From the NCBI GenBank assembly GCA_023249835.1, contig JAHFBY010000005.1, positions 1 through 14,295 of the forward strand: DNA of 14,295 nt, in the 5' to 3' direction. The first letter of the stretch is position 1; each line of letters begins with the position of its first letter. Position numbers and translations under genes: made by a program. This stretch comes from Elusimicrobiota bacterium. Lineage in GTDB: Bacteria > Elusimicrobiota > Elusimicrobia > 2-02-FULL-39-32. Below the pieces are notes generated by a model. The model saw only the letters and a program-made list of their open reading frames with translations. It ran no database searches and was not told where the DNA came from. Of the stretch, positions 1-13,039 are shown piece after piece.

Positions 1-568
1 TAAACCAACTTTCAAACTGGTACCACGCGCGGTCATAGAGCGGCTCAATTTTTAGAATGTGAAATCGTGATTTTTTTATTAACGCGATGAATTTCGGCGC
101 TTTTTGAGGACGCAAATAATCTGTAAATAAGACATGCCCATTGGGAGTTAACGCTTCGTAAATTTCAGCCAAGGCTTGGGGACGACGATTTTCTTCAACA
201 AACTCGTGAATTGCATCGGCAGCTACAATTAAATCAAAAACACCCCTCTGGAACGGCAAGTTCATCAATCCTGCCACTAAAAATTCAGCCGATGCATTTT
301 GGCAACGTTTTGCAGCAGACTCTACTGCTCCCAAGGACACGTCCATGGCAATAGTGTGCCGGCTTAAAGGGATTAGTTTTTTGGTTAACTGACCGCCGCT
401 GCACCCGATATCTAAGGTTCGAAAATAATGTGATTTTATCTCGCTTAAAAGTTTAGCGATAGATTGATGGCGCAATATTTCAATGCCACGACGACTATAG
501 TCCCAGGGTTCAGACTGGCAGGAGTACAAATTTTGGTAGTATTCAATACTTTTTAGAGGGTCATTCAT
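1..568 (-). CDS. Class I SAM-dependent methyltransferase, partial (C-terminus beyond left edge)
   Basis: This reading frame stays open to the left edge, so only the first 189 residues are present. It begins at ATG 568-566, directly preceded by an in-frame TGA, which fixes the start. Motif I of Rossmann-fold methyltransferases is clear (LDIGCSGG, residues 52-59), followed by the acidic strand-2 residue D76 (AMDVS) and the strand-4 segment FDLIVAADAIHEF (111-123). A post-motif region, TPNGHVLFTDYL, lies near 141-152. It resembles the NodS-like/small-molecule methyltransferase group, but the acceptor cannot be inferred. There is no normally spaced Shine-Dalgarno sequence: the nearest GGAGG is 24 nt upstream and inside the stem-loop at 579-618. 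The gene follows the long operon in the same direction but is separated from it by that stem-loop, so it may be expressed separately. Confidence 0.85.
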   Translation of the reverse strand, partial: MNDPLKSIEYYQNLYSCQSEPWDYSRRGIEILRHQSIAKLLSEIKSHYFRTLDIGCSGGQLTKKLIPLSRHTIAMDVSLGAVESAAKRCQNASAEFLVAGLMNLPFQRGVFDLIVAADAIHEFVEENRRPQALAEIYEALTPNGHVLFTDYLRPQKAPKFIALIKKSRFHILKIEPLYDRAWYQFESWF

Positions 569-578
569 TCAAAGAAAG

Positions 579-618
579 AATAATCACGTATACCTCCGCA
601 GAGATATACGTGATTATT
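579..618 (-). terminator. 18-bp stem-loop with C(UGCG)G tetraloop; probable terminator of the operon
   Basis: The arms 579-592 and 605-618 are perfect 14-nt inverted repeats. In minus-strand RNA the stem continues through a U604-G593 wobble and three more pairs (603/594, 602/595, 601/596). It is closed by a UGCG loop with a C-G closing pair, the cUNCGg type of very stable tetraloop. On the plus strand the wobble becomes a C/A mismatch, so the structure is better formed in the direction of transcription. It starts 9 nt after the TAG of the upstream TPR gene and is followed by CTTTCTTT, an imperfect U-tract. It may be an intrinsic terminator or a 3'-end stabilising structure. Its 3' side also buries the only GGAGG upstream of the methyltransferase. 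Confidence 0.75.
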
Positions 619-627
619 AAGAACGAA

Positions 628-1257
628 CTATTTTATTGATTTAATTCCAGCTAACGCAGATTGATTGCTGGGAGCAATTGATAGAATTTCAGTAAAAATT
701 GCTTTAGCTTGATCATTATTCTTTGCATAAAGATAAGCCCAACCCAACATGCTTTTTACATCCAAGTCCAAGGGATACATCTTCGACACAGACTCATACT
801 CTTTGACGCTGGATTTATAATCGCCCATATAAAAATACCCATACGCCAAACGCGTGCGCGACAAGTAATTTTTAGAGTCAATCTTTAATGCCATTTGAGC
901 GGATCCAATCAATTCGCTCCATTTCTTGGCCACCAACAAATGATACTGCTGATAGATCAAAGGCTCAATCGCGCCTTTCATGACTTCAGAGGCTTCCCCG
1001 TACAATTTAGCGGCAGCGTCAAACTTGCTCATCATTCCCTGCAAATAAGCTTCTCTCATCAACGCAGAATATTTAACCATATCGTTCGCGCCATCCATTG
1101 ATGCTTCTTTTATAATGTTATACGCGCCGGCGTAATCACCGCTTTTTTCCGAAGCATAGGATTTCTGGAAAAGGCTCGTATAATCTGCCGCAACAAGGTA
1201 ATTTAAACTTAAAAATGACATCATTCCAACTGCTACATACTTAACGCTTTTGTTCAC
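628..1257 (-). CDS. Secreted TPR-repeat protein (barrel-less paralogue of the neighbouring TPR/OMP protein)
   Basis: This is a 209-residue protein with an N-terminal signal peptide: a basic start, a hydrophobic stretch at residues 7-22 and a likely cleavage after LVAA (24). The mature part is helical repeats. The clearest TPRs are at about 130-163 (RTRLAYGYFYMGDYKSS) and 165-198 (LGWAYLYAKNNDQAKAIF), with degenerate repeats before them. The start is GTG 1257, supported by a perfect AGGAGG 9 nt upstream. It is the last gene before the stem-loop terminator and lies 41 nt after the TPR/barrel gene. Its repeat region aligns collinearly with the TPR half of that neighbour, suggesting duplication. 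A likely role is a periplasmic partner or scaffold for the envelope proteins of this operon. No enzymatic motif is seen. Confidence 0.85.
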   Translation of the reverse strand: MNKSVKYVAVGMMSFLSLNYLVAADYTSLFQKSYASEKSGDYAGAYNIIKEASMDGANDMVKYSALMREAYLQGMMSKFDAAAKLYGEASEVMKGAIEPLIYQQYHLLVAKKWSELIGSAQMALKIDSKNYLSRTRLAYGYFYMGDYKSSVKEYESVSKMYPLDLDVKSMLGWAYLYAKNNDQAKAIFTEILSIAPSNQSALAGIKSIK

Positions 1258-1266
1258 TTTTTACAA

Positions 1267-1272
1267 CCTCCT
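1267..1272 (-). promoter_or_regulatory. Shine-Dalgarno AGGAGG that fixes a GTG start
   Basis: A perfect AGGAGG on the minus strand lies 9 nt before GTG 1257. It supports the non-ATG start over the in-frame ATG codons at residues 12-13, which would remove the front of the signal peptide. It is the strongest ribosome binding site I see in the window, in an operon whose other sites are mostly weak. Confidence 0.8.
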
Positions 1273-1298
1273 AATTTTTTATTAATGATATTCGAGGG

Positions 1299-2648
1299 CT
1301 ACCACCATCTTACTAAAAGTTTTATTGTATGCGCAACCGAGGAATACTGCTTATTATTAGTTAAATTGAGCCCCTCGGAATATCCTAAGGTATATCCCAA
1401 GCTCCAGATCTTATCGTTATACTCCAGCATTCCTTTAAACGAGGAATTAACTTCGTCAGGCGCATCGTTAACGGAAAAACCGGAATCCGCTACGTGCATG
1501 GAATGCGTTCCTAAAATAGTAGACAAACCAAAGTGTAAATGTTCGGTATAATAATTACCCGCCAGCGTGCCGATCCAATAGTTTTTATATACAGAGATAT
1601 TCTTCGGACGAGAATCATCGGTTGGAATCGTTGCCGCGCCGTTATTAATTATATCGTCGCGCGCAATCCCGTTGCCAACCACGCTTAAGGACACTGGACC
1701 AAGATTAGTATTTAAGCCAATACCGCCCTCCGAAGCGCGGGAAGCCATATATTTAGAGCAAGAGCCGCTAAGCAAAAGCTTTTTCCACGCATAGCCAAGG
1801 GTGCCGACATCCCCTTCTCCCAACGAAGTATCGTTTGTCCTTATTTTCTTGTAGGTTAAAGTCGTGGACGAATTACCGGAATAGGTATAACTTCCAGTAT
1901 ATGAATCCTCCTGCAAAGGCGCGGCAAAAACGCTTAAAAAGTCGATGGTCAATCCCTCATAAGCGAAATCAAAGCGGTGGCGCGTGTTATGAACCAAAGT
2001 AAAAGCCACGTCGCGCGCATTGCCCTCTTTCTTTAAAGTGGAGCCATAGCCTAACCAAGTGTAGTATCCCGACAACTCATAATAACTGTACTTAGCCGAA
2101 GTATACGCGGTGTTCAATTGCTTTAAGCTAGTGTTCCCGGGATTAGCGATCAAAGCAAGCTCCGCATATTTTTTGGCATGTTCCAGGTCCCCCAAACCAT
2201 TGTAAGACCACGCCAACCCTTCCATGGCCGCTTGATTGCGATGGTCTAACTCATAAATTGTCGTGTAATGTTTTATCGCATTTTTGTATTTCCCCAAAGC
2301 AAGATACGCATAAGCGGTATTGATTAACACGTAAACGTTTTTCGGATACTTCATCAAAAGCTTATCGCCGAACGATGCGGCTTTTCTGAACCGGTTTAAT
2401 TTAACCAGCGAATTTTGCACGCCGACCTGCGCGTCCAACACGTAGTCGTCGTGCAGTTTCCCGACCGCAGTCCTTGCCCCTTGATCATAATACTTTAGAG
2501 CAGAAACATAGTCTCCGCTCCAATAATACTTATAGGCCAAGGCCATGCCCGCATTATACTGTTCTAACGCCTGGTCCGCGCGCGCCGGAGGAACTCCCAC
2601 TGTTCCGCTTAACAGCACTACCCCCATCAATATAACTATTTTTTTCAT
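1299..2648 (-). CDS. Outer-membrane protein: N-terminal TPRs plus C-terminal beta-barrel (YaiO-like layout)
   Basis: This is a 449-residue protein with a signal peptide (MKKIVILMG, cleavage probably after ARA at residue 24). TPR helices cover about 26-180, with recognisable repeats at 105-135 (AYAYLALGKYKNAIKHY) and 140-170 (LAWSYNGLGDLEHAKKYAELAL). From about residue 186 to the end the sequence switches to alternating aromatic/polar beta-strands and finishes with LLVRWW. A terminal aromatic residue is the usual signal for BAM-dependent outer-membrane insertion. The layout matches YaiO-type proteins, but residue-level homology is not proven here. ATG 2648 has GAGGTG 8 nt upstream. The gene lies 29 nt after the channel-M23 gene. 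It could act as an outer-membrane pore or export partner; the substrate is unknown. Confidence 0.85.
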   Translation of the reverse strand: MKKIVILMGVVLLSGTVGVPPARADQALEQYNAGMALAYKYYWSGDYVSALKYYDQGARTAVGKLHDDYVLDAQVGVQNSLVKLNRFRKAASFGDKLLMKYPKNVYVLINTAYAYLALGKYKNAIKHYTTIYELDHRNQAAMEGLAWSYNGLGDLEHAKKYAELALIANPGNTSLKQLNTAYTSAKYSYYELSGYYTWLGYGSTLKKEGNARDVAFTLVHNTRHRFDFAYEGLTIDFLSVFAAPLQEDSYTGSYTYSGNSSTTLTYKKIRTNDTSLGEGDVGTLGYAWKKLLLSGSCSKYMASRASEGGIGLNTNLGPVSLSVVGNGIARDDIINNGAATIPTDDSRPKNISVYKNYWIGTLAGNYYTEHLHFGLSTILGTHSMHVADSGFSVNDAPDEVNSSFKGMLEYNDKIWSLGYTLGYSEGLNLTNNKQYSSVAHTIKLLVRWW

Positions 2649-2677
2649 ACTCTTTTCACCTCGATTATTGTATTTTT

Positions 2678-4738
2678 TTACAGTATTCGAATCGAATCGA
2701 TAAATTTTTCCCTATGAATTTTTACTGAACATTCAAAACTGTCAATCAACCAACGCAATAAATAAGCGCTCCCGCTTGATTCAAAATTATAATTATCGAG
2801 CACGGAAAGCCGCGATTCATTGCGCGCGAAATTCCTATAAAATGACGTTAAAAACAATATTAGGCCGCTCCACCAAACTTTAAAACCAATCCCTATGGGC
2901 AATTGATCTTTCCACCAAATTCGCTCATCGCTTACCGGGTAAGAGGGCATGGCTAAAAACAAATAGCGCAAAATATTGTTTTTGGGCCCGGCGTAGCGAT
3001 AAAATCGAAAAAAGTTATTCACCAAGTCAAAATAAAGCCGGGATTTGCCGTTGCGCATATAAACCGCGCCGCTTGGATCCATCTCTACTTCAATGCGCTC
3101 TCTTTTTTCTACGAGTTGAACTCCGTTTTTTTTAACGCTTACCAAATAATCAAAACTGTCTTTCAGCAACAGTTCAAATATTTTCTTCTTTTTTGTTGTG
3201 GGCACAAGAGCTGCGACCCTTTGGCCTTTTTGGGGGTTCCACTTATGATAAAAACGACCTCCAGAAGCAACGGCCTGTTCAAAACGAAATTCCAAGGTTG
3301 GCGAATTGTCCTCTAACCCAGACATAGCTTGAATATGGATATGCGGGCAAGGAGAGTAGCCGGAATTACCGCACGCAGCAATGATTTCCCCCCGTTCCAC
3401 CACTGCTCCTACTTTAGAAGTTATTGATCCTTTTTTCAAATGGGATATTTTTATGTAGTAGCCGGCAATGACATATATAATCACGGAATTACCCCAATTG
3501 TTTTCTCGGTTAACCGACCCAATGGCATTGTCCGCAATATCGTTGACAACCAAGACTATTGTTCCCGCTGCCGGCGCAAAGACCGGTTTAGCATAAGCTA
3601 AGTAACTGTCCAGTAGTTTTGGGTTTCCAACCCATTGCTCATTTTGATCATTGACCATGACAAAATCCACGCCGTATTTCCACAAACCCTTGTGCGTGAT
3701 ATCGTCATCAAACGCTTGCGAGACAAACCATGAACCTGAAAACGGCAATGAAAAGGAGGGGAGGTCAGTTCGGAAACGAGTGGCGAAGTTTAAGAAAAAA
3801 TCGAGGTTTTCTTCCGGAGTATTGTGAAAAGTATAGATCTTGAGTTTGGAGGGAATCAACCTTAAATAATATATTAAGCAGAGAAGGACCAAGTTAAAAG
3901 GCAGGGTTAATACCGGCAGGTTAAATAACCCCAAAAAAGACTCGCATCCCGCCAACACAAGGTAAGTTAAAAGCGATATGATCACAGTAACTAGATAGGT
4001 CTGGGCAGAGGGGACCAAATATACGCCGCCGGCAGCAACCGCAGTTAAAACCAGGTTAAACAAATTGGGGTTAGAGACTAAAGTAAGGTATCTTGAATCC
4101 ATAAATTCATAATAAAAAAATCCGGAGTAATAACCGATTAAACTTAACAACAAAATAATTCGAGAATGATACAAAAGAGCCAAGGCAATGCACGCCCCAG
4201 CCCAAGGGTCTGTAGAGAAAAAAATACCCGCTAAGGATTGAAAATAACCGCCTAGCCCTAAGGGTAAATGGAAACTAATATAATTTTCCGGCTGAAAGCT
4301 ATACAGCGTCATTTGTTTAGAAAATATCGGCAAAATCATATACACGGTAAGGCTCACGATAACAAAGGGGAGGCTAAGCGCTGATAAACCAAAAATCTGC
4401 CTTAAAGCATGGCCCAAAACAATTGTTAAAATAATAGTTAAAATGCCGGCAAGCAGGGCCAGAAAAAGGATTGGCAGGGTCAAGGGATAGTGCGCGCCAA
4501 TGGATAAACCAACTAAAAGGGGGTTATAAAAGTAATGCGGTTCAATTATCCCAAAACGGTCAAAAACGAAACTGTGAAAAAGATAGGCTGAAACAAGCGT
4601 TAATACGCCAAAAAAACCGGTTTTAAAATCAAGGAAAGTTATCCCTGCTATGACCAAACCTAAAACAAATCGGTCGGTAAAAAATATTTCCGAATAAATA
4701 TAAAGGACTTTCTTAATGTTGTTCAATCTAGGATGCAA
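2678..4738 (-). CDS. Fusion of a urea-transporter-family channel with an M23 metallopeptidase domain
   Basis: This is a 686-residue fusion. Residues 1-297 are highly hydrophobic and show the two-fold repeat of the UT family (PF03253): YFYNPLLVGLSIG (69-81), LSLPFVIVSL (121-130), then FQSLAGIFFSTDPWAG (166-181) and LPVLTLPF (274-281). Residues about 330-475 form an M23/lysostaphin-type domain with D358 in YGVDF, H433 in ISHL and the HxH motif H466/H468. The usual first zinc His (D minus 4) is K354, and H349 is the nearest alternative. The last 200 residues include a hydrophobic stretch at 622-633 and no domain I recognise. The start is TTG 4738, 7 nt after the decarboxylase stop, with no clear ribosome binding site, so it is uncertain. 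Several selectivity positions differ from known urea channels, so the transported molecule may not be urea. Confidence 0.85.
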   Translation of the reverse strand: MHPRLNNIKKVLYIYSEIFFTDRFVLGLVIAGITFLDFKTGFFGVLTLVSAYLFHSFVFDRFGIIEPHYFYNPLLVGLSIGAHYPLTLPILFLALLAGILTIILTIVLGHALRQIFGLSALSLPFVIVSLTVYMILPIFSKQMTLYSFQPENYISFHLPLGLGGYFQSLAGIFFSTDPWAGACIALALLYHSRIILLLSLIGYYSGFFYYEFMDSRYLTLVSNPNLFNLVLTAVAAGGVYLVPSAQTYLVTVIISLLTYLVLAGCESFLGLFNLPVLTLPFNLVLLCLIYYLRLIPSKLKIYTFHNTPEENLDFFLNFATRFRTDLPSFSLPFSGSWFVSQAFDDDITHKGLWKYGVDFVMVNDQNEQWVGNPKLLDSYLAYAKPVFAPAAGTIVLVVNDIADNAIGSVNRENNWGNSVIIYVIAGYYIKISHLKKGSITSKVGAVVERGEIIAACGNSGYSPCPHIHIQAMSGLEDNSPTLEFRFEQAVASGGRFYHKWNPQKGQRVAALVPTTKKKKIFELLLKDSFDYLVSVKKNGVQLVEKRERIEVEMDPSGAVYMRNGKSRLYFDLVNNFFRFYRYAGPKNNILRYLFLAMPSYPVSDERIWWKDQLPIGIGFKVWWSGLILFLTSFYRNFARNESRLSVLDNYNFESSGSAYLLRWLIDSFECSVKIHREKFIDSIRIL

Positions 4739-4745
4739 ATATTTG

Positions 4746-6098
4746 TTATAGCTTAAACTTTTTCAATCTTTCCGGGACCTGTTCGTTGCCAATGACGTCA
4801 TCTAAGGTTTCCTTTCTCCTGATAACTTCTATTTCATTATTTTCCGTGATTAAGATAATATTAGGACGGTATTCGATGAACTGCATCCAAAAAGTTACGC
4901 AATAAGCGCCCACCGGATGAAAAATAAGGGGCGTTCCCGCGGAGAGCGGCGGTAAACGCACGAAATCCCTTATGACATCGATGTTCATGCAGAGCGGACC
5001 ATAGAGTATGGAGTCTTCAACCGGACCTTTAAAATCCACGCCAACTTTTACCGGGATATCGTACCACTGGGGCGTAACCATGAGGTTAACGCCCGCGTCC
5101 AAAATATAAGCTTTTTTACCATCCACCAATCTTTTTGAACCCACGATGCTAGTAATGAGGTACCCAGAATCATCAACAACCGCTCGCCCGCTTTCAAAAT
5201 ATACCGTGGGCATATAATGCGGGTTGGTCTTCTCATGTAGGGTCTGCCCTATCATCTTGGCGAAATCTTGGACCGGAGGAACAGAGAAGTCCGGCGGCAA
5301 ATAAATGCCTTTTAATCGGTTTCGGGAAGGGAACCCTCCACCCAAATTGATATATTCCAGCGTAATCTTATATTCTTCCTTTAATGTCGCTGCAAACTGC
5401 AATAGCTTTTCAGCGGAAATTTGATAGGCTTTCGTGGACAACATGAACGTGCCCATATGGCAGTGCACTCCAACCAAGTTCAATTTTTTATTTTTCACCA
5501 GCCGCTTGACCATGGTCAGAGCCTGGCCATTTTCCAAATTAAAGCCAAACCGGCTCCATTGCGGATAAACGCCGGAATCTAAGTTTATGCGCAGCCCAAC
5601 GTCAATTTTTTTGTTGCGCTTGGCAGCGATCTCTTCCAATCGAAAAATTTCATCGAAATGATCAATATTGATCATGGCGCCGTCTGCCGCGGCCACTTCC
5701 AATATCTCCGAACGTTTACAGGGTCCGTTAAAAATAATCTTATGGCCGGGAACGCCCAGCCTCTTTGCTTTTTGATATTCAAACTCTGAAACCACCTCCG
5801 CCAAACAACCTTCGCTATGCAAGATGCTGCAGATCGCGCCCAAATAGTTGGTTTTATAAGACCAGGCAAAAACCACGTTCGGGTAGTACGCTTTAAATGC
5901 TTGGACGTAAGAACGAATAGTTTTGCGCAGCTCCCGCTCAGAAAAGACAAAAACCGGCGACCCAAATTTTTCAACGATATCTTTTATCTTAACGCCGTCA
6001 ATCTCGGTCATCCCTTGATCGTTGAACCCGCTTTGAAACTTGTTAATCATTCCCATAGTTTGCTTAATCAATATGGGTTTTTCATAAATCTTTTTCAC
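4746..6098 (-). CDS. Fold-type III PLP-dependent decarboxylase (diaminopimelate/ornithine decarboxylase-like)
   Basis: This 450-residue protein carries the hallmarks of the DapDC/ODC alanine-racemase-fold family: the PLP Schiff-base lysine K82 in WSYKTNY, HCHMG (212-216), the phosphate-binding GGGFP (253-257), ESGR (302-305), the active-site cysteine in YGPLCMNID (C370) and the GAYC segment (397-400). These enzymes decarboxylate amino acids such as meso-diaminopimelate, ornithine, lysine or carrier-bound substrates. An extra 30 residues precede the usual N-terminus. The canonical EPGR is ESGR, a variant I associate with biosynthetic-cluster members rather than housekeeping LysA. The GTG start overlaps the stop of the ATP-grasp gene as GTGA, with AAGGGGG upstream, implying translational coupling. 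The context argues for a specialised substrate, so lysA is not assigned. Confidence 0.88.
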   Translation of the reverse strand: MKKIYEKPILIKQTMGMINKFQSGFNDQGMTEIDGVKIKDIVEKFGSPVFVFSERELRKTIRSYVQAFKAYYPNVVFAWSYKTNYLGAICSILHSEGCLAEVVSEFEYQKAKRLGVPGHKIIFNGPCKRSEILEVAAADGAMINIDHFDEIFRLEEIAAKRNKKIDVGLRINLDSGVYPQWSRFGFNLENGQALTMVKRLVKNKKLNLVGVHCHMGTFMLSTKAYQISAEKLLQFAATLKEEYKITLEYINLGGGFPSRNRLKGIYLPPDFSVPPVQDFAKMIGQTLHEKTNPHYMPTVYFESGRAVVDDSGYLITSIVGSKRLVDGKKAYILDAGVNLMVTPQWYDIPVKVGVDFKGPVEDSILYGPLCMNIDVIRDFVRLPPLSAGTPLIFHPVGAYCVTFWMQFIEYRPNIILITENNEIEVIRRKETLDDVIGNEQVPERLKKFKL

Positions 6099-7135
6099 GC
6101 TCTTTCCCCCTTAACCACAATTTGCTTAAAATCATTGATATCGCGAATTAGCTCAGCCGCATAGCGCACTAACAATTTACCGCTTTCATAGTGACTCGAA
6201 AATTCCGCTTCATCATCCAAAAGGTTGGCCGCATAACGGAAAGGCAAGTTGATCCCCGCTCCCGTGCCCAAATAAATCCAGGCCGGAAACCTAGGGTTTA
6301 TTTCCAGCAAATACAGTTCGTCTTTATTCGTCATCCGAAACTCCAATTCAAAACCGCCCCTGTATCCCGTAGTTTGGATAAATTTTCGACCAATTTCCAA
6401 CATCTTTGGATTTTGGATCGTCACCGCTGTCCAAACCTTTCCCATTTGAGTAAGCATGAGTTTTTTTATCGCCACCAAACCCAAACAGCCGCCTTCCTTT
6501 CCCGCCAACCCCGCCAAATTATAGTCGTTGCCCGTCAAAAACTGCTGCACTAAAACCGGGTAGCCCCACTTGTTCGCCAACTGTTGATAAAAACTTTGCG
6601 CTTCAAAATAGGAATGAACGCAATAAGCCTCATAAAAACAGCCTTTCACCATGGCCGGGAACCCCACTTTATCCAACGCCAAATTCAACTCTTCCAGGGA
6701 AGTCACTGGAATTGTTCGGGGAACTTTAATGTTGATTTTTTCGCCCAGAGCAGGCAAGTTTACTTTAGTCATGCTTTCAAATAAATCTTTAGATGAAATG
6801 TTTAGCCCAATATTTTTTTGCTGAAATTGTTCAAAGTTTTTTACGTAATGCGGAAGTTCCGAATCTAGGGCAGGGATAATAGCCTCAATATCATTTTGTT
6901 CGCAAATCTGCAAAAGCCGCGCAATATAATCTGCGCTGTCGGCTGAAGGGTAGGGCAAAAGGAAAGCTTTGTCTACGTACTGTTCCAAATAGAGGCCTGA
7001 ATCCATAGCGTCATAAGAAAGTCCAACGCAACAATAATCTTGGCCGGATTCTTTAAGGCTGCGAATAATTCCCATCCCCGGGCCGGGATTTTCGCCGGAA
7101 TTAATTCCCGATACTGCAATGTTGCGCCGTTTCAA
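6095..7135 (-). CDS. ATP-grasp ligase (CarB-like fold)
   Basis: This 346-residue protein has a pre-ATP-grasp Rossmann-like region (residues 4-90, with ISGxNPGPGMG-type loops), a lysine typical of ATP binding (MVKG, K164) and the metal-binding end of the fold (GFELEF, E265; LLEINPRFPAW, E278 and N280). ATP-grasp enzymes activate a carboxylate as an acyl-phosphate and ligate it to an amine or thiol. The segment around residues 233-245 (GKVWTAVTIQNP) matches a CarB-like subgroup. The start is TTG 7135, overlapping the PqqD-like stop as TTGA, with AAGG 9 nt upstream. An internal ATG at residue 21 would break the N-terminal fold. Its tight coupling to the PqqD-like and decarboxylase genes suggests one pathway, perhaps amide-bond formation on an amino-acid or peptide substrate. 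The substrate is unknown. Confidence 0.87.
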   Translation of the reverse strand: MKRRNIAVSGINSGENPGPGMGIIRSLKESGQDYCCVGLSYDAMDSGLYLEQYVDKAFLLPYPSADSADYIARLLQICEQNDIEAIIPALDSELPHYVKNFEQFQQKNIGLNISSKDLFESMTKVNLPALGEKINIKVPRTIPVTSLEELNLALDKVGFPAMVKGCFYEAYCVHSYFEAQSFYQQLANKWGYPVLVQQFLTGNDYNLAGLAGKEGGCLGLVAIKKLMLTQMGKVWTAVTIQNPKMLEIGRKFIQTTGYRGGFELEFRMTNKDELYLLEINPRFPAWIYLGTGAGINLPFRYAANLLDDEAEFSSHYESGKLLVRYAAELIRDINDFKQIVVKGERA

Positions 7136-7374
7136 TCAATTAGACCTTTGCTTTTAAGCAGTTCCTGAAAATCAATCAAGTCCCGTTCCGCTTCTTCCCG
7201 CGTAACCTCAAAATTATTTTGCAGCATATCGCTCAAGTCATCCAGGTTGCCGGTTTCTTTCATCTTCCTTAATATTTCCAGGCCGATGGCATTGGTGGTA
7301 TAGGAAATTCCAGTTTCAGGATCAAACAGGAACCCGTCATCGTTCATGGCTATTCGCTTTAATTTTTCGTTCAT
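7132..7374 (-). CDS. PqqD-like small protein (peptide-chaperone/RRE-type fold)
   Basis: This 80-residue protein is acidic and has no signal peptide. The pattern is that of PqqD-family proteins: a beta-hairpin FLFDPETG (residues 15-22), the conserved turn YTTNAIG ahead of a long helix, an acidic middle helix and a final winged-helix-like segment (FQELLKSKGLID). Classical PqqD binds the leader of the PQQ precursor peptide for a radical-SAM enzyme. Related proteins sit in many peptide-modification loci, including the so-called HPr-rel-A type. No radical-SAM enzyme is present here; the next gene is an ATP-grasp ligase. Two in-frame ATGs are close together. I chose 7374 because AAAGGG lies 6 nt upstream of it, whereas it abuts the ATG at 7380. 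Confidence 0.8.
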   Translation of the reverse strand: MNEKLKRIAMNDDGFLFDPETGISYTTNAIGLEILRKMKETGNLDDLSDMLQNNFEVTREEAERDLIDFQELLKSKGLID

Positions 7375-7380
7375 ACCCAT

Positions 7381-7386
7381 CCCTTT
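7381..7386 (-). promoter_or_regulatory. Shine-Dalgarno AAAGGG deciding between two ATG starts
   Basis: AAAGGG on the minus strand touches the first ATG (7380-7378) but is 6 nt from the second (7374-7372). The spacing favours the second ATG as the start of the PqqD-like gene. Confidence 0.55.
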
Positions 7387-7398
7387 GCTTTTAAAAAA

Positions 7399-8247
7399 TT
7401 ATTGCCCGGATTTAGGTTTGCCAACATCATAACCTAACTCCGAGAGAACTTCGCTCAACTCTATCAATTCCCTTTTTTTAGCTGCGATCATCTTATGGAA
7501 AGTGTTCACCACCGGACGCGGGGTCAATGCGGAACTGCAACTTATCACTTCCATAACACAAACCATATTTTGAATTTCTCCCGTTAACTCTTCAAACCGG
7601 TAACGCGAAATTTCCGCATTCTGGAATTCGTATTTTTTCATGAGGTCCTTCTTATCTTTAAGGATTTGCTCATAGCGCGCCGCCAACTCCGCAAAATGAC
7701 CGTTCACAAGTTCCGCTTGCCGGCGCAAAGAATTATTTTCTTGGGTCAAGGAACGAACCTCTTCTTCTAACTTAAACTTATCGTTGATCCCCTGCGACGC
7801 AAGTCCCGGAATACCGTTCTTTTTTAGCTCGTTGACTTCTTTTTCCAGTTCATAAATCCTGCGGCTCCTCTCCATCATCTCAAATTTTAAGGCAGAGACC
7901 CGCTCCACAACGGATTCGTCCGTTTGAATTGGAAGGCGAACAGACGGCGGGTTGGATTTTTCGCGCACGAATTCAATTAAAAGGCGGTGCGTCTCATCAA
8001 TCCTTTGTTCTAAAGCCGCAATTCGTTCCTGGGCCCGGGTATTGTCCTCTTCTTTTTGGCGCACCGCGGACTCTGCCCGCAACTGATCTTTCAGCGCGCG
8101 GAAAGTTCCTTCCACTTCAAGCCTAGCGCTTTCTCTCTCCTGAAAACGAATTTCCGCAGTTAACGCTTTCTCTTTTTCCGCCAAATACTTAGCCTCCAAG
8201 TCCAGCGCTTTAGCCTTTAAATCCCGTTCATGGACTTTATCTTCCAT
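7399..8247 (-). CDS. Cytoplasmic coiled-coil protein, unknown function
   Basis: This 282-residue protein has no signal peptide or membrane helix. Residues 1-100 and about 115-215 are strongly charged heptad-like coiled coil, interrupted by a proline/glycine linker near 100-112. The C-terminal 70 residues are less charged, contain two cysteines (MVCVMEVISCS) and may form a small helical bundle. I chose ATG 8247, one base after the TAA of the preceding gene. A longer version starting at TTG 8271 adds eight residues and overlaps that gene, but has no better ribosome binding site. It lies 24 nt before the chosen PqqD-like start. Coiled-coil similarity to many filament or tether proteins carries no functional information. 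It may pair with the larger coiled-coil protein encoded just upstream. Confidence 0.75.
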   Translation of the reverse strand: MEDKVHERDLKAKALDLEAKYLAEKEKALTAEIRFQERESARLEVEGTFRALKDQLRAESAVRQKEEDNTRAQERIAALEQRIDETHRLLIEFVREKSNPPSVRLPIQTDESVVERVSALKFEMMERSRRIYELEKEVNELKKNGIPGLASQGINDKFKLEEEVRSLTQENNSLRRQAELVNGHFAELAARYEQILKDKKDLMKKYEFQNAEISRYRFEELTGEIQNMVCVMEVISCSSALTPRPVVNTFHKMIAAKKRELIELSEVLSELGYDVGKPKSGQ

Positions 8248-8248
8248 T

Positions 8249-9847
8249 TTATTTGCCGTCCCTCTGCGCAATGGCTTTTAAAATTTTATTGTGCAGATGG
8301 ATAACGTCCTGATCATCCGGCAAGAGCTCGTTTAAAAGTCCCGTGCGCTTTAGCGCGCTTTCCAAGTCGCCGTTTCGGAACTCTTTATTGGCCACTTCGC
8401 CCAAAACCATGGTCAATGAATTTTTAATTATGGAATTTTTACGGTCTAACCGATAAGCCTCTTCCAGTGAAGTTAATGCGCTTTCCAGGTCGCCGGCAGA
8501 GAACATGCCGTTACCCTCGTGCAACAGTTTTTGCGCCTTGACCAAGTTGCTATTATTATCTTTGATGTTCCAGACAATTAGCGCTCCAGAAAACAACAAA
8601 AGACCGCTAAGGACTAAAATGATCCCGGCCTTGGCAGATTTAAATTGACCCATCCACTTAAATAAATATTTTGGCTTTTGTTCAAGCGACATACCTCCAC
8701 CCAAAGCAGGACGTTCTTCTTTTGAAAGTTTAGCGCCGGAAGTAAACGCGGGTCCAACGGTTTGCGGATTAGGAGGAACGTGACTTTTCCATTCCAAACG
8801 ATTTAGCAAATCTACGACTTTACCGGAAATATTTAACTGCTGCGCAGACTGAGTTTTTATAGATTCCACCCAATCTTCCCTGCGTTTGCGCAACTCTTCA
8901 TCTTTTAAAACGATTTGTTCTTCTCTATTCTTGAGAGCTGTTTCCGCCTGTTCTCTTTCCACAATAACCTGTTCTAAAGACTCCTGCAACTCTCCGATTT
9001 TTTCTTCACGGTTTAATAGCTGTTCCACCATGCGTTTGCGGTCTTCTTCGGCCTGCATCATCTGCCGCTCGCGTTCCACCACCGCTAAACGCCTCTCTTC
9101 CTTTTCTTTATCCAACATTTGCCTAAGATTAGACAACTCTTCTTCTAGCTTAACCAATTGCAGCTCTTTTTCACTAACCTTATCGTTTAAAGCGCGTTTT
9201 TCTGTTTCATAATTATTTTCATTGGCATTGATTTGCGCCTGCAAATCGCGGATGTTTTGCTCTAACCTTGAAACTTCTTCCAACTCTTGCTGGCGACGTT
9301 CATAAAGGTCCTTGCGAACATGATTAACCTCTTCTTCCTTTTCGTCCCTTTCTTTATCCCATTGCTTTTGACGCTCCTCCCAATTCTTGCGCAGCGACTC
9401 TTGGACCTCGCTTTCTTCCCGCAATTTTAACTTTAGATCCAAGATTTCTTTGCGCGAGAACTCCAGTTCACTGCGCAACTGCTCCGCGTGCGCTTGACTG
9501 CTGCGGCGCTGCATCTCCAAAGTGGAAAAAGTTTGCTGCAGGATATGGCCCTGCTGCTGGTTATGCTCTTCAATTTTATTTTTAAGGGATGCGCTATGTT
9601 CTTGTTCGCGGGCAAGTTCGGCTTGCAAAACTTCTAACTTTTCCTCTTTAGACTCAAGCAGGCTCTCCCAATAACTCTTTTCTTTTTCAAAGCGGGCGCG
9701 GACGTTGTTTAAAGCCGCTATTTGAATCTCGTTTTGAGCCGATTCAAACTGGCCGGAAAGTTCCCCCTTGCCCTCCACCGGATCCAGGCGATGTTGCACC
9801 TTGTCCCACAAGGTATCAAGTTGTTTTTTTAAATAATCGTCATTCAT
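8249..9847 (-). CDS. Large coiled-coil protein with one membrane helix and C-terminal TPRs
   Basis: This 532-residue protein has a long, nearly continuous charged coiled coil over about 34-335. A proline/glycine-rich linker follows (356-390), then a basic stretch (KWMGQFKSAK), one membrane helix (about 407-426) and a TPR-type C-terminus (435-527) in which GDLESAL occurs twice (452-458, 493-499). The basic residues just before the helix suggest that the coiled coil is cytoplasmic and the TPRs extracytoplasmic. This would be a tether linking cytoplasmic partners to the envelope. ATG 9847 overlaps the end of the small ORF by 8 nt. No good Shine-Dalgarno sequence is seen, which fits translation by coupling. 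The family is not recognised; a role in anchoring or scaffolding is an inference from architecture. Confidence 0.8.
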   Translation of the reverse strand: MNDDYLKKQLDTLWDKVQHRLDPVEGKGELSGQFESAQNEIQIAALNNVRARFEKEKSYWESLLESKEEKLEVLQAELAREQEHSASLKNKIEEHNQQQGHILQQTFSTLEMQRRSSQAHAEQLRSELEFSRKEILDLKLKLREESEVQESLRKNWEERQKQWDKERDEKEEEVNHVRKDLYERRQQELEEVSRLEQNIRDLQAQINANENNYETEKRALNDKVSEKELQLVKLEEELSNLRQMLDKEKEERRLAVVERERQMMQAEEDRKRMVEQLLNREEKIGELQESLEQVIVEREQAETALKNREEQIVLKDEELRKRREDWVESIKTQSAQQLNISGKVVDLLNRLEWKSHVPPNPQTVGPAFTSGAKLSKEERPALGGGMSLEQKPKYLFKWMGQFKSAKAGIILVLSGLLLFSGALIVWNIKDNNSNLVKAQKLLHEGNGMFSAGDLESALTSLEEAYRLDRKNSIIKNSLTMVLGEVANKEFRNGDLESALKRTGLLNELLPDDQDVIHLHNKILKAIAQRDGK

Positions 9848-9962
9848 AAAAAACCGAGTGATCCCGCCAAGTTTGCGAAAAGATCAGCTCGGGCTTCTCA
9901 TTTATAGCAGGAATGTAAGTCATTTTCAATACCGGCTCACTAAAGTCACCTGGACCCCTCAT
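9840..9962 (-). CDS. Small 40-residue ORF coupled to both neighbours
   Basis: ATG 9962 overlaps the histidine-kinase stop as ATGA, and AAGG lies 8 nt upstream. The ORF ends with TGA at 9840, overlapping the next gene's start by 8 nt. It therefore fills the whole 111-nt gap between two genes with a typical translational-coupling arrangement. The peptide is mixed in character, with no signal or membrane helix, two aromatic patches and FYE at its end. I recognise no family. It may be a genuine microprotein, a coupling leader for the coiled-coil gene, or conceivably a substrate for the peptide-type enzymes downstream. A longer in-frame version starting at 10112 lies inside the kinase gene and is not supported. 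Confidence 0.5.
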   Translation of the reverse strand: MRGPGDFSEPVLKMTYIPAINEKPELIFSQTWRDHSVFYE

Positions 9963-11500
9963 ATTTGAAACCTTGGCTTTGGCCTTTGCGGCAATTCCGG
10001 CACAGGCTCCGGCGATTGCAGAGGTAGAGAAACAACTATCCGCGCCCCTTTGCCAATACCTGCAGAATGCGCTGTAATTAAACCCTGATGTTTCTGCATG
10101 ATTGTATAACAAATACTTAAACCTAACCCTGTTCCCCGACCCGGCTCTTTAGTTGTAAAAAAGGGTTCAAAAATATGCGGCAAATACTCTGCGTCAATTC
10201 CTATACCGCTGTCAATAATATCCAATTCCACCATCTGTCTTCCCGCATCCTCCCTACCTGGGTCAATGGAAAGAGACTTCTGCCGAACAACCCTACTCGC
10301 AATGGTTAAACTCCCTCCCTTAGGCATAGAGTGCACGGCGTTAGTGATTACGTTTAAAATTACCTGCTGTAAATGCCCGGCGCTGGCCCAGACGTCCGGG
10401 ACAGGCTCACCCTTGCTATCCCATATCAACTTAATATTTAATGAGGTTATCTCCGCTTCGCACAAAGCTAAAACCGATTGGATGGTTTCAACAACGTTCA
10501 CCGGAGCGAAATTATAGTCTGACGGTCGAGAAAAATCCAATAACCCGCGCACAATTTTACGGCACCGCTGCGCAGCGTTTTCAATTTTTTCCACATGGGA
10601 TCGTTTGGGATCATTGGGATCCATTTTTTCAAGCAATAGCTGGGCCTGGCCCAACACGCCCGATAAAGGATTATTAATTTCATGCGCCACTCCCCCGGAA
10701 AGAGTGCCGATAGAGGACATCCTGTCCATCTGTAAAACCTTGGCTTCATATCGGCTTAAAGATTCGCTCATAACCTCAACGCAACGCGCAAGGTTGGCAA
10801 ATTCTAAAGGCGCGGTTATATTCAACTTTAATCGCCATTGTCCTTCTCCCACAGAGTGAAGCGCATCCTGCAAGATGGCCAAAGGTTCGCAAATAGATTG
10901 ATAAAGATTGATCGCAAAACCTATTGCCGCAAGGATTATAGCCATAAGGAGCAATACGGACAACAACGTCAAAGCTTGGGCATAATGCTTACTTTGCGCC
11001 CAATATTGATCAGAGGTCTGTTTCTTCTCACTGGCTAAGGACTTGCTATAGTTTTCAGTGGCCTCCATTGCATCCAATAGGGAATCCTTTAGCATCTTAT
11101 CGGCGTCCGCGCTTCGGCCCTGATCTGCTAAATTAAACACCAACTCTACGCTGCTCCCAAACGCTCTAAACCGCGCAGCATACTGCGCCGCTTGATTTAG
11201 CTCTTCCACAAAAATTGCAGTTTTTTGCCACTGAGTGATCAAGCTGCGCAATTTAATTTCCTGCACTACATATTCATCTTTCTTTTCCCGGTTGCCGGCA
11301 ACGTAACTTTCTAACGCCTCCCGTAAACGCAATTGGGTTTGATTTATATCGCTTAATAAATCATGGATTTCGCGGTTGCGCTCATAAGCAGCATATTGCG
11401 TCCGCAAAGTTCGTGAGGACCCAATCAGCACAATCCCCAAAAATAAAGTAAGCGCTATGATTACTGCATATGAAAGTATCAGCCTGATTTTAATGGACAT
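9959..11500 (-). CDS. Membrane-bound sensor histidine kinase (NtrB/ZraS-type catalytic core)
   Basis: This 513-residue kinase has a membrane helix at 7-27, a helical sensor region (about 30-172, resembling four-helix-bundle sensors) and a second membrane helix (about 177-199). A HAMP-like linker (200-250) leads to a HisKA domain whose H-box has phospho-acceptor H273 (VAHEINNP). The HATPase_c domain shows the N-box NVITNAVHSMPKGG (383-396), G1 DSGIGI (430-435), the F-box FEPFFTT and G2 GRGTGLGL (454-461). All catalytic elements are intact. A proline-rich tail follows 493. ATG 11500 has GAGGAG 10 nt upstream, inside the end of the PorV-like gene. No response regulator is in the window, so the partner is elsewhere or beyond the right edge. 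The periplasmic four-helix sensor suggests detection of an envelope or extracellular cue. Confidence 0.93.
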   Translation of the reverse strand: MSIKIRLILSYAVIIALTLFLGIVLIGSSRTLRTQYAAYERNREIHDLLSDINQTQLRLREALESYVAGNREKKDEYVVQEIKLRSLITQWQKTAIFVEELNQAAQYAARFRAFGSSVELVFNLADQGRSADADKMLKDSLLDAMEATENYSKSLASEKKQTSDQYWAQSKHYAQALTLLSVLLLMAIILAAIGFAINLYQSICEPLAILQDALHSVGEGQWRLKLNITAPLEFANLARCVEVMSESLSRYEAKVLQMDRMSSIGTLSGGVAHEINNPLSGVLGQAQLLLEKMDPNDPKRSHVEKIENAAQRCRKIVRGLLDFSRPSDYNFAPVNVVETIQSVLALCEAEITSLNIKLIWDSKGEPVPDVWASAGHLQQVILNVITNAVHSMPKGGSLTIASRVVRQKSLSIDPGREDAGRQMVELDIIDSGIGIDAEYLPHIFEPFFTTKEPGRGTGLGLSICYTIMQKHQGLITAHSAGIGKGARIVVSLPLQSPEPVPELPQRPKPRFQI

Positions 11501-11503
11501 AAA

Positions 11504-13039
11504 TTATTCGCTCCTCTGCCTAACCCGCAATACTTTCAACTCGCGCTCCACCACCGTTAAATCCGTGCCGGTGCGCACAAACCTTTGCACCAACTGGCTC
11601 AACAAACCTATCCGTTCCGCAATATTAGCCCCGCGCACCACCACTTTTTGATAATAACTCCATGCAAAGGCCAAATCCACCTCTGATTTTGCGCGGTCGG
11701 ATTTTAACATTGCCAACTCTTCCATAGCGTCGGCAATGTTAAAACCATACCGGCTAAATTCATCCACTATTCGGTTAAGGATTTCAATCCGTTCGCTGAT
11801 TTGCGCTCCATTTACTTTTTTGCGTTTATACCCCTCCATAGCGACCAGATATTGTTCTTCTCTCTTTTTCCCTAAAATGGCCTTATCCTGTTCTTGTTCC
11901 ACTGCTTTTCTACCTTGCGCCATCTTCGCCTGCAGTTCTTCAATTTCTATCATCAAGGATCGCGATTCTTCTTTAACTTTTGCGAGTTCCAACTCCGCCT
12001 TTTTAGCTAAAATATCCGCCCCCTGCATACGTAAACTATAATCAGGCTCGGCAATGACATTGCCAAAACGCAAAGTGAAACTGAACCGGTGATTGCCTTG
12101 CGTAACGCCAAATTTCACGCCGGTAATGGGCATTTGCATTCCGTAATCCAACTGCACGGACCCAACGCGAACAGCAACTCCCAAAGAAAGCGCGCTATAG
12201 TTTCTAGAACCAAAACCTAATGACCCCCGAGCTGCCAAGTCCGAATTTCCCCAGCCGGCGCCCAACCACCATTTTTCTCCCGCTGCCGTTAAATTAAAAT
12301 CTCGGTTGTTAGTTGGCGATTTAACCGTATCCAATTCACCTAAAAGAGTCAAACCCTTTTCCTGATAGGATAATCCGCTGCGCACGCTCATTGGCAAAAC
12401 ATCGCTATCATTGCCGGCAATAGACATGTTGGGTTGGTTGATGTTTTTTAAAGACAATCCATAAGTGTAGTTTAGATAGGGCCTAAATAAGAGGCCCAAA
12501 TCAAATGAATAGTTAGTGCGGCTGTCTCCGCTTGAGAATACCGGGTCAGTTTTGCTCAAATCCACTAAAGCTAAATTATTGGTTTGACCTACCGGCGCAG
12601 AAAAACTTCGGCGCAACTGCTTTACACCTAACCCGCCAAAAAGAATACGCGTTAACCGGCGCGCATAGGCCAAGGTCACTTCTCTTTCCGAATAAAGATC
12701 GTCTGCGGAATACTGGTGGTAGGAAACTCCAAAATTTCCTATTGGGCCTATAAAAGGATGTCCATAAACAAAATAAGAATGGCTGATTTTAGTGTTGTCC
12801 GAAAGTCCGGAATAGAGCCGTCCGTAGCTGGCCGAGAGCTCTTTACGGTACAAGTACACTAAACCCGCTGGGTTGTAGTAAACAGAATAAACGTCATCTG
12901 CCACGGCCGTATAGGCGCCCCCCAAAGCTGTTGCCCTTGCTCCGGTGCCAATATCTTCAAATGAGGACCAGGCTAAACTCGGACAAGCAAATGATCCGAT
13001 CAGTAAAAGAGCGTAAATTTTATTATCTGATTTCATCAC
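11504..13039 (-). CDS. PorV-like outer-membrane beta-barrel with a C-terminal coiled-coil/repeat tail
   Basis: This is a 511-residue protein. A signal peptide (about 1-24) is followed by the conserved PorV/UPF0164 (FadL-like) N-terminal signature GARATALGGAYTAVADD (33-49) with YYNPAGL (54-60), then barrel strands to about 328 (RFSFTLRFGN). Family members normally end near there; PorV proteins attach or shuttle type IX-secreted proteins or act as outer-membrane pores. Here 180 further residues follow: a charged coiled coil (338-400) and two copies of a 46-residue repeat (404-449, 463-508). GTG 13039 overlaps the FN3 gene's stop as GTGA, and an ATG follows at once (13036), so the start is uncertain by one codon. 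The FN3/CHU_C-like protein before it is a plausible client. No other type IX gene is seen. Confidence 0.87.
   Translation of the reverse strand: MMKSDNKIYALLLIGSFACPSLAWSSFEDIGTGARATALGGAYTAVADDVYSVYYNPAGLVYLYRKELSASYGRLYSGLSDNTKISHSYFVYGHPFIGPIGNFGVSYHQYSADDLYSEREVTLAYARRLTRILFGGLGVKQLRRSFSAPVGQTNNLALVDLSKTDPVFSSGDSRTNYSFDLGLLFRPYLNYTYGLSLKNINQPNMSIAGNDSDVLPMSVRSGLSYQEKGLTLLGELDTVKSPTNNRDFNLTAAGEKWWLGAGWGNSDLAARGSLGFGSRNYSALSLGVAVRVGSVQLDYGMQMPITGVKFGVTQGNHRFSFTLRFGNVIAEPDYSLRMQGADILAKKAELELAKVKEESRSLMIEIEELQAKMAQGRKAVEQEQDKAILGKKREEQYLVAMEGYKRKKVNGAQISERIEILNRIVDEFSRYGFNIADAMEELAMLKSDRAKSEVDLAFAWSYYQKVVVRGANIAERIGLLSQLVQRFVRTGTDLTVVERELKVLRVRQRSE
11516..11830 (-). repeat. Two-copy tandem protein repeat, period 59 residues (177 nt)
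   Basis: Residues 404-449 and 463-508 of the PorV-like protein share the pattern Y...V..GA.I.ERI..L...V..F.R.G..L...E.EL..L. Copy 1 includes GAQISERIEIL, and copy 2 includes GANIAERIGLL. The copies are exactly 59 residues apart and diverged at the DNA level, so this is an old internal duplication of a helical module rather than an assembly artefact. Confidence 0.8.

Follow-up and report, generated by a model that had tools for sequence, protein, structure and literature searches.

A conserved six-gene bacterial cassette that looks like a pathway for making a small amino-acid-derived compound and passing it across both membranes

Introduction

In several described biosynthetic systems, decarboxylases related to diaminopimelate decarboxylase (DAPDC) act on amino acids that are already attached to something else: FigC, SbnH, AcsE, MccE and BtrK group with DAPDC, and BtrK acts on a carrier-bound amino acid, as stated in PMC7857480. 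BtrJ of the butirosin system has been placed in a clade of ATP-grasp enzymes related to carbamoyl phosphate synthetase (CPS) (PMC4431377), and ATP-grasp enzymes also make graspetides (PMC8939145). The Pfam family PF05402 contains PqqD and many other recognition domains for ribosomally synthesised and post-translationally modified peptides (RiPPs; PMC12710340), and pairs of tetratricopeptide repeat (TPR) and beta-barrel proteins serve in envelope-spanning polysaccharide export (PMC9384988, PMC9734138). Here we analyse a gene cassette that combines relatives of all these components. It lies in a 14,295-nucleotide stretch of DNA, referred to below as the window, from an Elusimicrobiota bacterium (GCA_023249835.1, contig JAHFBY010000005.1, positions 1 to 14,295).

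The original prediction, made from the letters of this stretch, described four genes at 2678-7380 as a coupled cassette of a PqqD-like protein, an ATP-grasp enzyme, a pyridoxal phosphate (PLP) decarboxylase and a channel fused to an M23 peptidase. We find that these four genes belong to a conserved six-gene unit. The gene set is apparently unstudied, and it looks like a full pathway in which a small amino-acid-derived compound is made and then passed out across both membranes. Among the papers listed by our literature searches we recognised no description of this set; the work of Iyer and others (2009) on amidoligases may contain an earlier mention.

Results

Six genes form a conserved unit

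All six genes lie on the minus strand. The first (7132-7380, 82 aa) encodes a small PqqD-family protein (PF05402) and the second (6095-7135, 346 aa) an ATP-grasp ligase with a PylC-like N-terminal domain and an ATPgrasp_Ter-type core (PF15632 and PF21360). The third (4746-6098, 450 aa) encodes a PLP decarboxylase of the alanine-racemase fold that is nearest to FigC/FslC, and the fourth (2678-4738, 686 aa) a fusion, here called UT-M23, of a urea-transporter-like (UT) channel, an M23 metallopeptidase domain and a C-terminal beta domain. The fifth product (1299-2648, 449 aa) has a hydrophobic N-terminus, a TPR superhelix and a predicted 14-stranded outer-membrane beta-barrel, and the sixth (628-1257, 209 aa) is a TPR protein, recognised by TPR Pfam matches, with a hydrophobic N-terminus of its own. 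The PqqD and ATP-grasp genes overlap by TTGA and the ATP-grasp and decarboxylase genes by GTGA; by coordinates, 7 nt separate the decarboxylase gene from that of UT-M23. The sequence thus bears out the four genes, the two overlaps and the gap that had been described. The span given for them was too short, as it missed two more conserved genes downstream: the unit continues past 2678 to position 628.

A profile of 31 ATP-grasp relatives, scanned against genomes, matched 582 stretches, of which 561 encode a relative. The neighbour rates given here hold for the best 80 of these at least 561 confirmed relatives; the open reading frames (ORFs) of the 80 loci were searched with the window's own proteins (phmmer, E<1e-3), and a locus is counted as having room where enough DNA is available on the side in question. 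By their unchecked record titles, the 80 loci span about a dozen phyla, mostly as metagenome bins, and include Aquificales, Thermodesulfobacteria, Verrucomicrobia, Bacteroidales, cyanobacteria, Campylobacterales, Gemmatimonadetes, Planctomycetota, Cloacimonadota, Calditrichota, Delongbacteria, Hydrogenedentota and proteobacteria. The PqqD gene lies upstream of the ATP-grasp gene in 77/80 loci (75/76 with room) and the decarboxylase gene downstream in 77/80 (72/74 with room). A UT domain is encoded downstream in 64/80 (62/70 with room), together with M23 in 61 of those 64. Because gene order recurs across phyla, the recurrence of the cassette is far beyond chance. The coupling of ligase, decarboxylase and channel-M23 protein put forward in the original prediction therefore holds: that proposal depended on the homologues not being rarely adjacent, and they are nearly always adjacent in these loci.

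Pairwise distances among the six families correlate, with Mantel r between 0.61 and 0.92 (49-77 loci per pair; for all 15 pairs, 0/999 permutations gave a value as high), and shared genome ancestry contributes to these correlations. Some loci depart from the common layout. The ATP-grasp protein stands alone in L068; in L014 PqqD and ligase are present, preceded by an IS605-type gene, and L072 has only PqqD and ligase up to the end of the available DNA. UT-M23 lies upstream instead in L013 and L047 and on the opposite strand in L021, and L080 has UT in an ORF that lacks M23. L013 starts with the envelope genes and ends with the synthesis genes. One record, L025, is titled Klebsiella pneumoniae (a metagenome bin) and has a cassette layout like the Limisphaerales one in L024; its title looks wrong.

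Synthesis and envelope genes co-occur even when apart

The ligase and UT-M23 were searched for separately in three phylum samples comprising 493 genomes. In the window's own phylum the ligase search used one protein at 1e-20; all other searches used profiles at 1e-40. The samples include four genomes known beforehand to carry the cassette (G000, G295, G297 and G301). Among 81 genomes of the phylum of a Persephonella bin, 25 have the ligase, 26 UT-M23 and 25 both; the corresponding numbers are 5, 4 and 4 among 118 genomes of the Thermodesulfobacterium phylum, and 6, 7 and 6 among 294 genomes of the window's own phylum, where the seventh UT-M23 is an M23-only match. Overall, UT-M23 occurs in 35/36 ligase genomes and the ligase in 35/37 UT-M23 genomes.

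The unit is occasionally split. In G443, G459 and G424, PqqD, ligase and decarboxylase are separated from UT-M23 and the barrel protein, with the halves about 196 kb apart on one contig in G443 and on different contigs in G459 and G424. By these profiles, the ligase and UT-M23 each stand alone in G492. G469 has UT-M23 and lacks the ligase. Where one of its contigs starts (L155, G469:C107), pieces of the decarboxylase and UT are spread over several frames; the absence of the ligase may thus be limited to the assembly, and either decay of the cassette or a faulty assembly could account for this locus. A separate observation is that L154 (G324:C301), on a 4.8-kb contig that lacks UT-M23, has two tandem ATP-grasp genes between PqqD and the decarboxylase.

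The window ligase shares 57-67% identity with eleven proteins (P0002-P0012), of which some are named from Hydrogenedentota or Firestonebacteria bins, and only 34-38% with the ligases found in its own phylum. This comparison (loci L007-L011 and L141-L145) suggests lateral transfer.

The cassette decarboxylase differs from LysA

Family models were run on eight window proteins (Pfam) and on four cassette proteins (NCBIfam), and for genes 1-4 every NCBIfam model listed stayed below its own cut-off. Gene 3 matches Orn_Arg_deC_N (115.5 bits, cut-off 23.4) and Orn_DAP_Arg_deC (43, cut-off 23). It scores higher with the FslC model NF041039 than with the lysA model TIGR01048, and falls short of both families: 240.6 bits with a cut-off of 500 for the N-citrylornithine decarboxylases (FslC/FigC), and 229.1 bits with a cut-off of 297.9 for LysA. 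Its best PDB match is 7kh2, an N-citrylornithine decarboxylase. A genome search covered 13 of 14 named genomes. In it the window's cassette enzyme scored 228.7 bits with the lysA model and the other copy in the same genome 503.8, and a separate LysA above 297.9 bits was present in 13/13 genomes, in G297 only by pooling its broken pieces. Each of the 13 also has a second copy at 212-234 bits, which by coordinates is the cassette enzyme in G000, G295, G297 and G301.

We aligned 72 cassette decarboxylases, keeping ORFs of 380-560 aa and dropping the others. K82, which we take to be the PLP lysine, H212, E302, R305, C370 and D374 are invariant in 72/72. The active-site motif C370-M-N-I-D374 (4977-4991, minus strand) occupies the place of C-E-[ST]-[GS]-D in LysA; its C370, M371 and D374 are found in 72/72 and its N and I in 70/72. 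In the LysA comparison set, C-E and R-P are kept in 11/11 sequences. The window decarboxylase has C-M-N and T-P at these places, and across the cassette family the arginine of R-P is mostly replaced by threonine. The glutamate of C-E-S and the arginine of R-P are presumably the residues with which LysA binds diaminopimelate (DAP). According to the PDB-match alignment, FslC/FigC likewise has methionine at the M371 position and shares C-M-x-x-D. In a tree, the 72 cassette decarboxylases form one group with a support of 0.75, against only 14 other sequences. By its sequence, then, the cassette decarboxylase is distinct from LysA, because a separate LysA is present in 13/13 genomes and the DAP-type residues are replaced.

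It might be argued that the genes are chance neighbours or housekeeping copies that share no function. All the domains are individually common, and nothing of weight speaks for the idea beyond that. The order is kept across phyla, the genes co-occur in genomes where they are not adjacent, and LysA is encoded separately, so we regard this explanation as refuted to the point of being negligible. The same LysA counts dispose of the concern, raised with the original prediction, that the decarboxylase could be a genome's only housekeeping copy.

The small protein and the ligase fall outside described peptide systems

PqqD is the sole Pfam family matched by gene 1 (PF05402, 49.7 bits, cut-off 23.4), which stays below the cut-off of all seven NCBIfam PqqD-type models listed. 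It scores 21.2 bits with TIGR03859, the model for pyrroloquinoline quinone (PQQ) biosynthesis (cut-off 46), and 20.5 bits with TIGR04353 of the HPr-rel-A/GAK type (cut-off 35). Neither a radical-SAM nor an HprK match appears among the eight window proteins scanned with Pfam. In agreement with what had been predicted, the cassette is thus neither of the PQQ type nor a GAK/HPr-rel set. As the small protein matches PqqD only, it also does not qualify as a butirosin-type carrier with a phosphopantetheine site.

Gene 2 matches ATPgrasp_Ter (40.0 bits, cut-off 29.1) and PylC-like_N (32.5, cut-off 27) and is nearest to models of the CPS/PylC type. K164, E278, N280 and R282 are invariant in 31 ligase sequences, and 2890 proteins match the ligase at E<=1e-3.

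The cassette could also act on a ribosomal peptide whose gene lies elsewhere in the genome, with PqqD presenting a leader, the ATP-grasp enzyme linking or extending the core, the decarboxylase trimming it, and M23 removing the leader before export. M23 is a peptidase, PF05402 holds RiPP recognition domains (PMC12710340) and graspetides are made by ATP-grasp enzymes (PMC8939145). A RiPP or graspetide cluster would have a conserved precursor gene beside the cassette. Among ATG-started ORFs of 18-95 aa within 900 nt upstream of PqqD in 73 loci, none was widely shared: only three groups occurred in at least three loci, all from the same four related Desulfurobacterium-like loci. This search listed no groups of two, and distant precursors and ORFs elsewhere in the cassette lay outside its scope; as far as it reaches, the cassette does not behave as a RiPP or graspetide locus. 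No precursor peptide having been found next to the cassette, the presentation of peptides by PqqD that the original prediction drew upon lost ground. The likeness of the ligase to CPS/PylC-type models also argues against a ribosomal peptide, and a UT pore would be too narrow for one. We therefore regard this origin of the product as rather improbable.

UT-M23 joins a urea-type channel to an intact M23 domain

UT-M23 passes the Pfam cut-offs of both its parts: 136.4 bits for UT (PF03253, cut-off 25; residues 12-290, 3869-4705, minus strand) and 38.8 for Peptidase_M23 (PF01551, cut-off 28.7; about residues 325-490, 3269-3766, minus strand). The structural model, made from 42 sequences, has a pLDDT of 90; its first ~320 residues match bacterial and animal urea transporters, and the part that follows matches M23 enzymes. 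With Foldseek, the TM-score to the bacterial urea transporter 3me1/3k3g is about 0.8 by target length, so the channel belongs to the urea transporter family by cut-off and by fold. It scores 60.6 bits with TIGR03441 (cut-off 274.6) and is not a yut-type urea transporter by that model. On the basis of the dvUT residues that we take to line the pore, the pore aromatics are kept (F20 in 41/42; Y71, F174 and F227 in 42/42), and the presumed filter positions hold S122 in 39/42 and, at position 278, T in 33 and A in 9, which preserves a hydroxyl group in most cases. In the M23 domain, the zinc and catalytic residues are intact: H349, D358, H433, H466 and H468 are invariant in the 42 sequences. Its first H and D are nine residues apart, the usual M23 spacing being four. 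For the C-terminal domain (about 500-686), the 50 Foldseek matches listed contained no specific PDB match.

Over the 42 sequences, the N-terminal 25 aa contain a mean of 3.45 K+R and the 35 aa that follow the final helix 5.24, compared with 0.48 for the linker of 21 aa that joins the repeats. Since both channel ends are rich in K and R and the linker is not, the positive-inside rule suggests that both ends, and hence the M23 domain, are probably cytosolic. The termini of known urea transporters are cytosolic as well. The original prediction had the channel-M23 protein moving or processing a compound at the envelope; the channel part of that proposal is retained, and processing in the periplasm has become doubtful.

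The topology may nevertheless be the reverse: a periplasmic M23 domain would cut or bind peptidoglycan, and the UT channel, the TPR protein and the barrel would form a continuous path through the cell wall. The solved structures matched by this domain are largely those of cell-wall hydrolases (ShyA, LytM and lysostaphin), the TPR and barrel partners have N-termini that resemble export signals by a crude hydropathy test, and TPR and barrel pairs are known from envelope-spanning polysaccharide export (PMC9384988, PMC9734138). The charge distribution speaks against it. So does the cysteine content of UT-M23: one cysteine is invariant, and the sole other present in at least 20% of sequences, at position 432, is found in a third of them. 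A stand-alone relative of this type of M23 occurs moreover in a haloarchaeon, and haloarchaea lack peptidoglycan. We consider the reversed topology unlikely, though it is the strongest of the competing explanations.

Stand-alone relatives of the M23 domain, with hydrophobic N-terminal parts, were seen in that haloarchaeon (L157:2695-3621, near nitrile hydratase genes) and in Thermus (L158:2689-3648); both carry the same CGNSGHS and PHLH motifs, which is evidence of an indirect kind. On plasmids, 32 records match UT-M23 and none covers 80% of the query, so no full UT-M23 was found there; 30/30 matches listed start at residue 314 or later, outside the channel.

The downstream genes encode a TPR protein and a predicted outer-membrane barrel

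ORF clustering of the loci gave one family present in 50 loci, mostly directly behind UT-M23, which resolves into two genes. Proteins of the barrel family are mostly about 280-490 aa long and end in F, W or Y in 38/48 cases, as outer-membrane barrels tend to do; those of the TPR family are mostly about 200-260 aa long. The crude hydropathy test found a hydrophobic stretch near the N-terminus in 45/48 of the barrel family and 44/46 of the TPR family. In a split-half test, for which profiles were built from the other half of the loci, the TPR gene lay downstream in 43/51 testable loci, both the TPR and barrel genes in 41/51, and a TPR gene anywhere in the locus in 48/51. Gene 6 of the window is recognised, at 1.6e-30 and 3.4e-30, by half-set profiles from which it had been left out. 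Of the two half-set barrel profiles, one matches gene 5 (1.8e-19, perhaps via its TPR part) and the other does not, so the assignment of its barrel relies on the structural model.

The AlphaFold2 model of gene 5 (33 aligned sequences) has a pLDDT of 89.4, with helices at residues 23-184 and 14 strands at 189-448, and predicts a TPR superhelix followed by an outer-membrane barrel. Its top PDB match is BcsC (E 1.7e-11, TM-scores 0.36/0.31), with EstA, PorB, CymA, OmpF and other porins or barrels close behind. No synthase or glycosyltransferase of a polysaccharide-secretion system appears in the Pfam matches of the eight window proteins scanned; the 84 selected neighbours have 75 Pfam families, and the 25 commonest of them include none either.

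Neighbouring genes and the direction of transport

Pfam scans of the neighbourhood covered 20 upstream neighbours and a further 84 of the 249 listed; almost all of these 84 were plus-strand genes picked manually. Among the 84, the commonest families are DUF2202 (4/84) and citrate transporters (3), followed with 2 each by DUF4405, LTXXQ, cytochrome c' and response regulators. On these counts we did not adopt a metal or redox role for the cassette. A DUF4405 gene lies directly upstream of PqqD in L019 (2605-3417), and L078 has a DUF2202 gene (6869-7555).

In the search for a seventh member, ORF clustering of the flanks yielded, apart from the TPR/barrel family, a response-regulator-like family whose positions vary across 14 loci. 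It also yielded two families, present in 9 and 6 loci and represented in L045 (L045:2042-3872), that lie directly upstream of the cassette. LytTR-type response regulators directly upstream of PqqD (L079:6872-7618 and L081:6878-7573) possibly control the cassette. In the window, two coiled-coil-type genes (7399-9847), one with a weak TPR match, lie upstream of PqqD across a gap of 18 nt; their family is not among the recurrent neighbour families.

The neighbours also bear on an inward direction of transport, in which the barrel and UT would admit a urea-like nutrient, the ATP-grasp enzyme would join it to an amino acid carrier, the decarboxylase would process the conjugate and M23 would free the carrier. 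UT proteins are passive and could work inwards, the barrel also resembles the porins CymA, PorB and OmpF, and a logic of ligation, processing and hydrolysis is known from the degradation of gamma-glutamyl-putrescine. However, no urease or amide-degrading enzyme is among the commonest recurrent neighbour families listed, although response regulators do recur, and we know of no role of a PqqD protein in catabolism. Uptake is improbable in our view, and marginally more so than a ribosomal peptide.

Discussion

We favour, tentatively and at somewhat less than an even chance, a six-gene system for biosynthesis and delivery in which a ligase-decarboxylase pathway has a dedicated exit across two membranes. 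We infer its substrate, chemistry, order of steps, M23 side and direction of transport as follows. The PqqD-like protein would supply the ATP-grasp ligase with an acceptor of peptide or aminoacyl type, and the ligase would join a carboxylate and an amino acid by an amide bond. The FigC/BtrK-like decarboxylase would then strip the alpha-carboxylate from the conjugated amino acid; we place ligation first because relatives of the FigC/BtrK type use conjugated amino acids and because the gene order runs from ligase to decarboxylase. Trimming or release of the product would fall to the M23 domain, which probably sits where the urea-type channel opens to the cytosol. If small and polar, the product could then leave the cytosol by the UT pore, and its passage over the outer membrane would be the task of the TPR/beta-barrel protein together with the exported TPR protein. 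We assume export, and not uptake, because biosynthetic enzymes are present.

Several points weigh against this model. Passage through a UT pore should be limited to polar molecules of very small size, which fits a ligated product poorly unless M23 cleaves it first, and a cytosolic M23 hydrolase would be unusual. The charge argument covers the two ends and the linker, and the other loops, some with conserved K or R, have no side assigned. L083 and L091 have no UT-M23 nearby despite ample room, nor does L086 in the 1.2 kb that remain past the decarboxylase. Eight of the 51 testable loci, three of them cyanobacterial, lack the barrel and TPR genes downstream (L032, L035, L036, L058, L059, L061, L062 and L080); in L059 a TPR gene lies directly upstream of PqqD. 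As a whole fold, BcsC matches the gene 5 model weakly, and the flanking genes give no consistent hint of function.

A more specific form of the two-membrane exit is conceivable, if doubtful: UT-M23 might be a cleave-and-release channel, whose cytosolic zinc hydrolase would cut the precursor after its ligation and decarboxylation; the pore would then admit nothing but the small product set free, to be exported by the TPR/barrel pair. If true, this would be a new kind of delivery system for small molecules, and a cleave-and-release channel in many diderm phyla would export one class of compound. The six-gene system, with its synthesis and envelope halves, occurs in many candidate phyla as well as in Aquificota, cyanobacteria, Bacteroidota and Verrucomicrobiota. 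The favoured model would, if correct, give new roles to the urea-channel fold, the M23 peptidase and the PqqD protein; to our knowledge, none of the three has been shown in such a role. Its small size would allow the complete cassette to be expressed and tested.

Among known systems, dvUT shares with UT-M23 the fold, the aromatic pore positions and the filter motif. UT-M23 differs in its fusion to M23 and the C-terminal beta domain, in the replacement of the filter threonine of the first half by serine (39/42; the second half has Thr in 33 and Ala in 9 of 42), and at the position of Q24, which is Glu in 30/42 and Gly in 9/42. The butirosin proteins BtrI, BtrJ and BtrK likewise combine a small protein, an ATP-grasp ligase and a DAPDC-derived decarboxylase, with BtrJ as the ligase. 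BtrI is a carrier protein, whereas PqqD is not, and we know of no export part of the cassette's kind in that system. The ATP-grasp protein passes the Pfam cut-off of the family found in Ter-linked biosynthetic operons (PF15632), but no Ter family is among the Pfam matches of the eight window proteins scanned.

The rhizoferrin enzymes FigA/FigC (FslA/FslC) also resemble the cassette: an amide-forming ligase works first, and the amino acid that it has ligated is then the substrate of a decarboxylase with the alanine-racemase fold (PMC7857480). The cassette decarboxylase is nearest to FslC/FigC and shares C-M-x-x-D with it, even though its FslC score is far below the cut-off; the cassette ligase is of the ATP-grasp type and not a synthetase for siderophores independent of non-ribosomal peptide synthetases (NIS synthetase), and PqqD, UT-M23, TPR protein and barrel are additional. 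The exporters BcsC, PgaA and AlgK-AlgE share with the cassette the combination of TPR and outer-membrane barrel, either with the TPR superhelix leading into the barrel or with a separate TPR protein next to it. The cassette differs from BcsC-type exporters in its 14 strands, its short TPR part, its low TM-scores and the absence of a polysaccharide synthase from the cassette. By the tests described above, the cassette lies outside LysA, FslC, PQQ and HPr-rel/GAK systems, outside RiPP systems as far as they could be assessed and outside polysaccharide synthase systems; by analogy, its enzymes may follow the logic of FigA/FigC or BtrJ/BtrK, and its outer half may resemble the TPR/barrel exporters.

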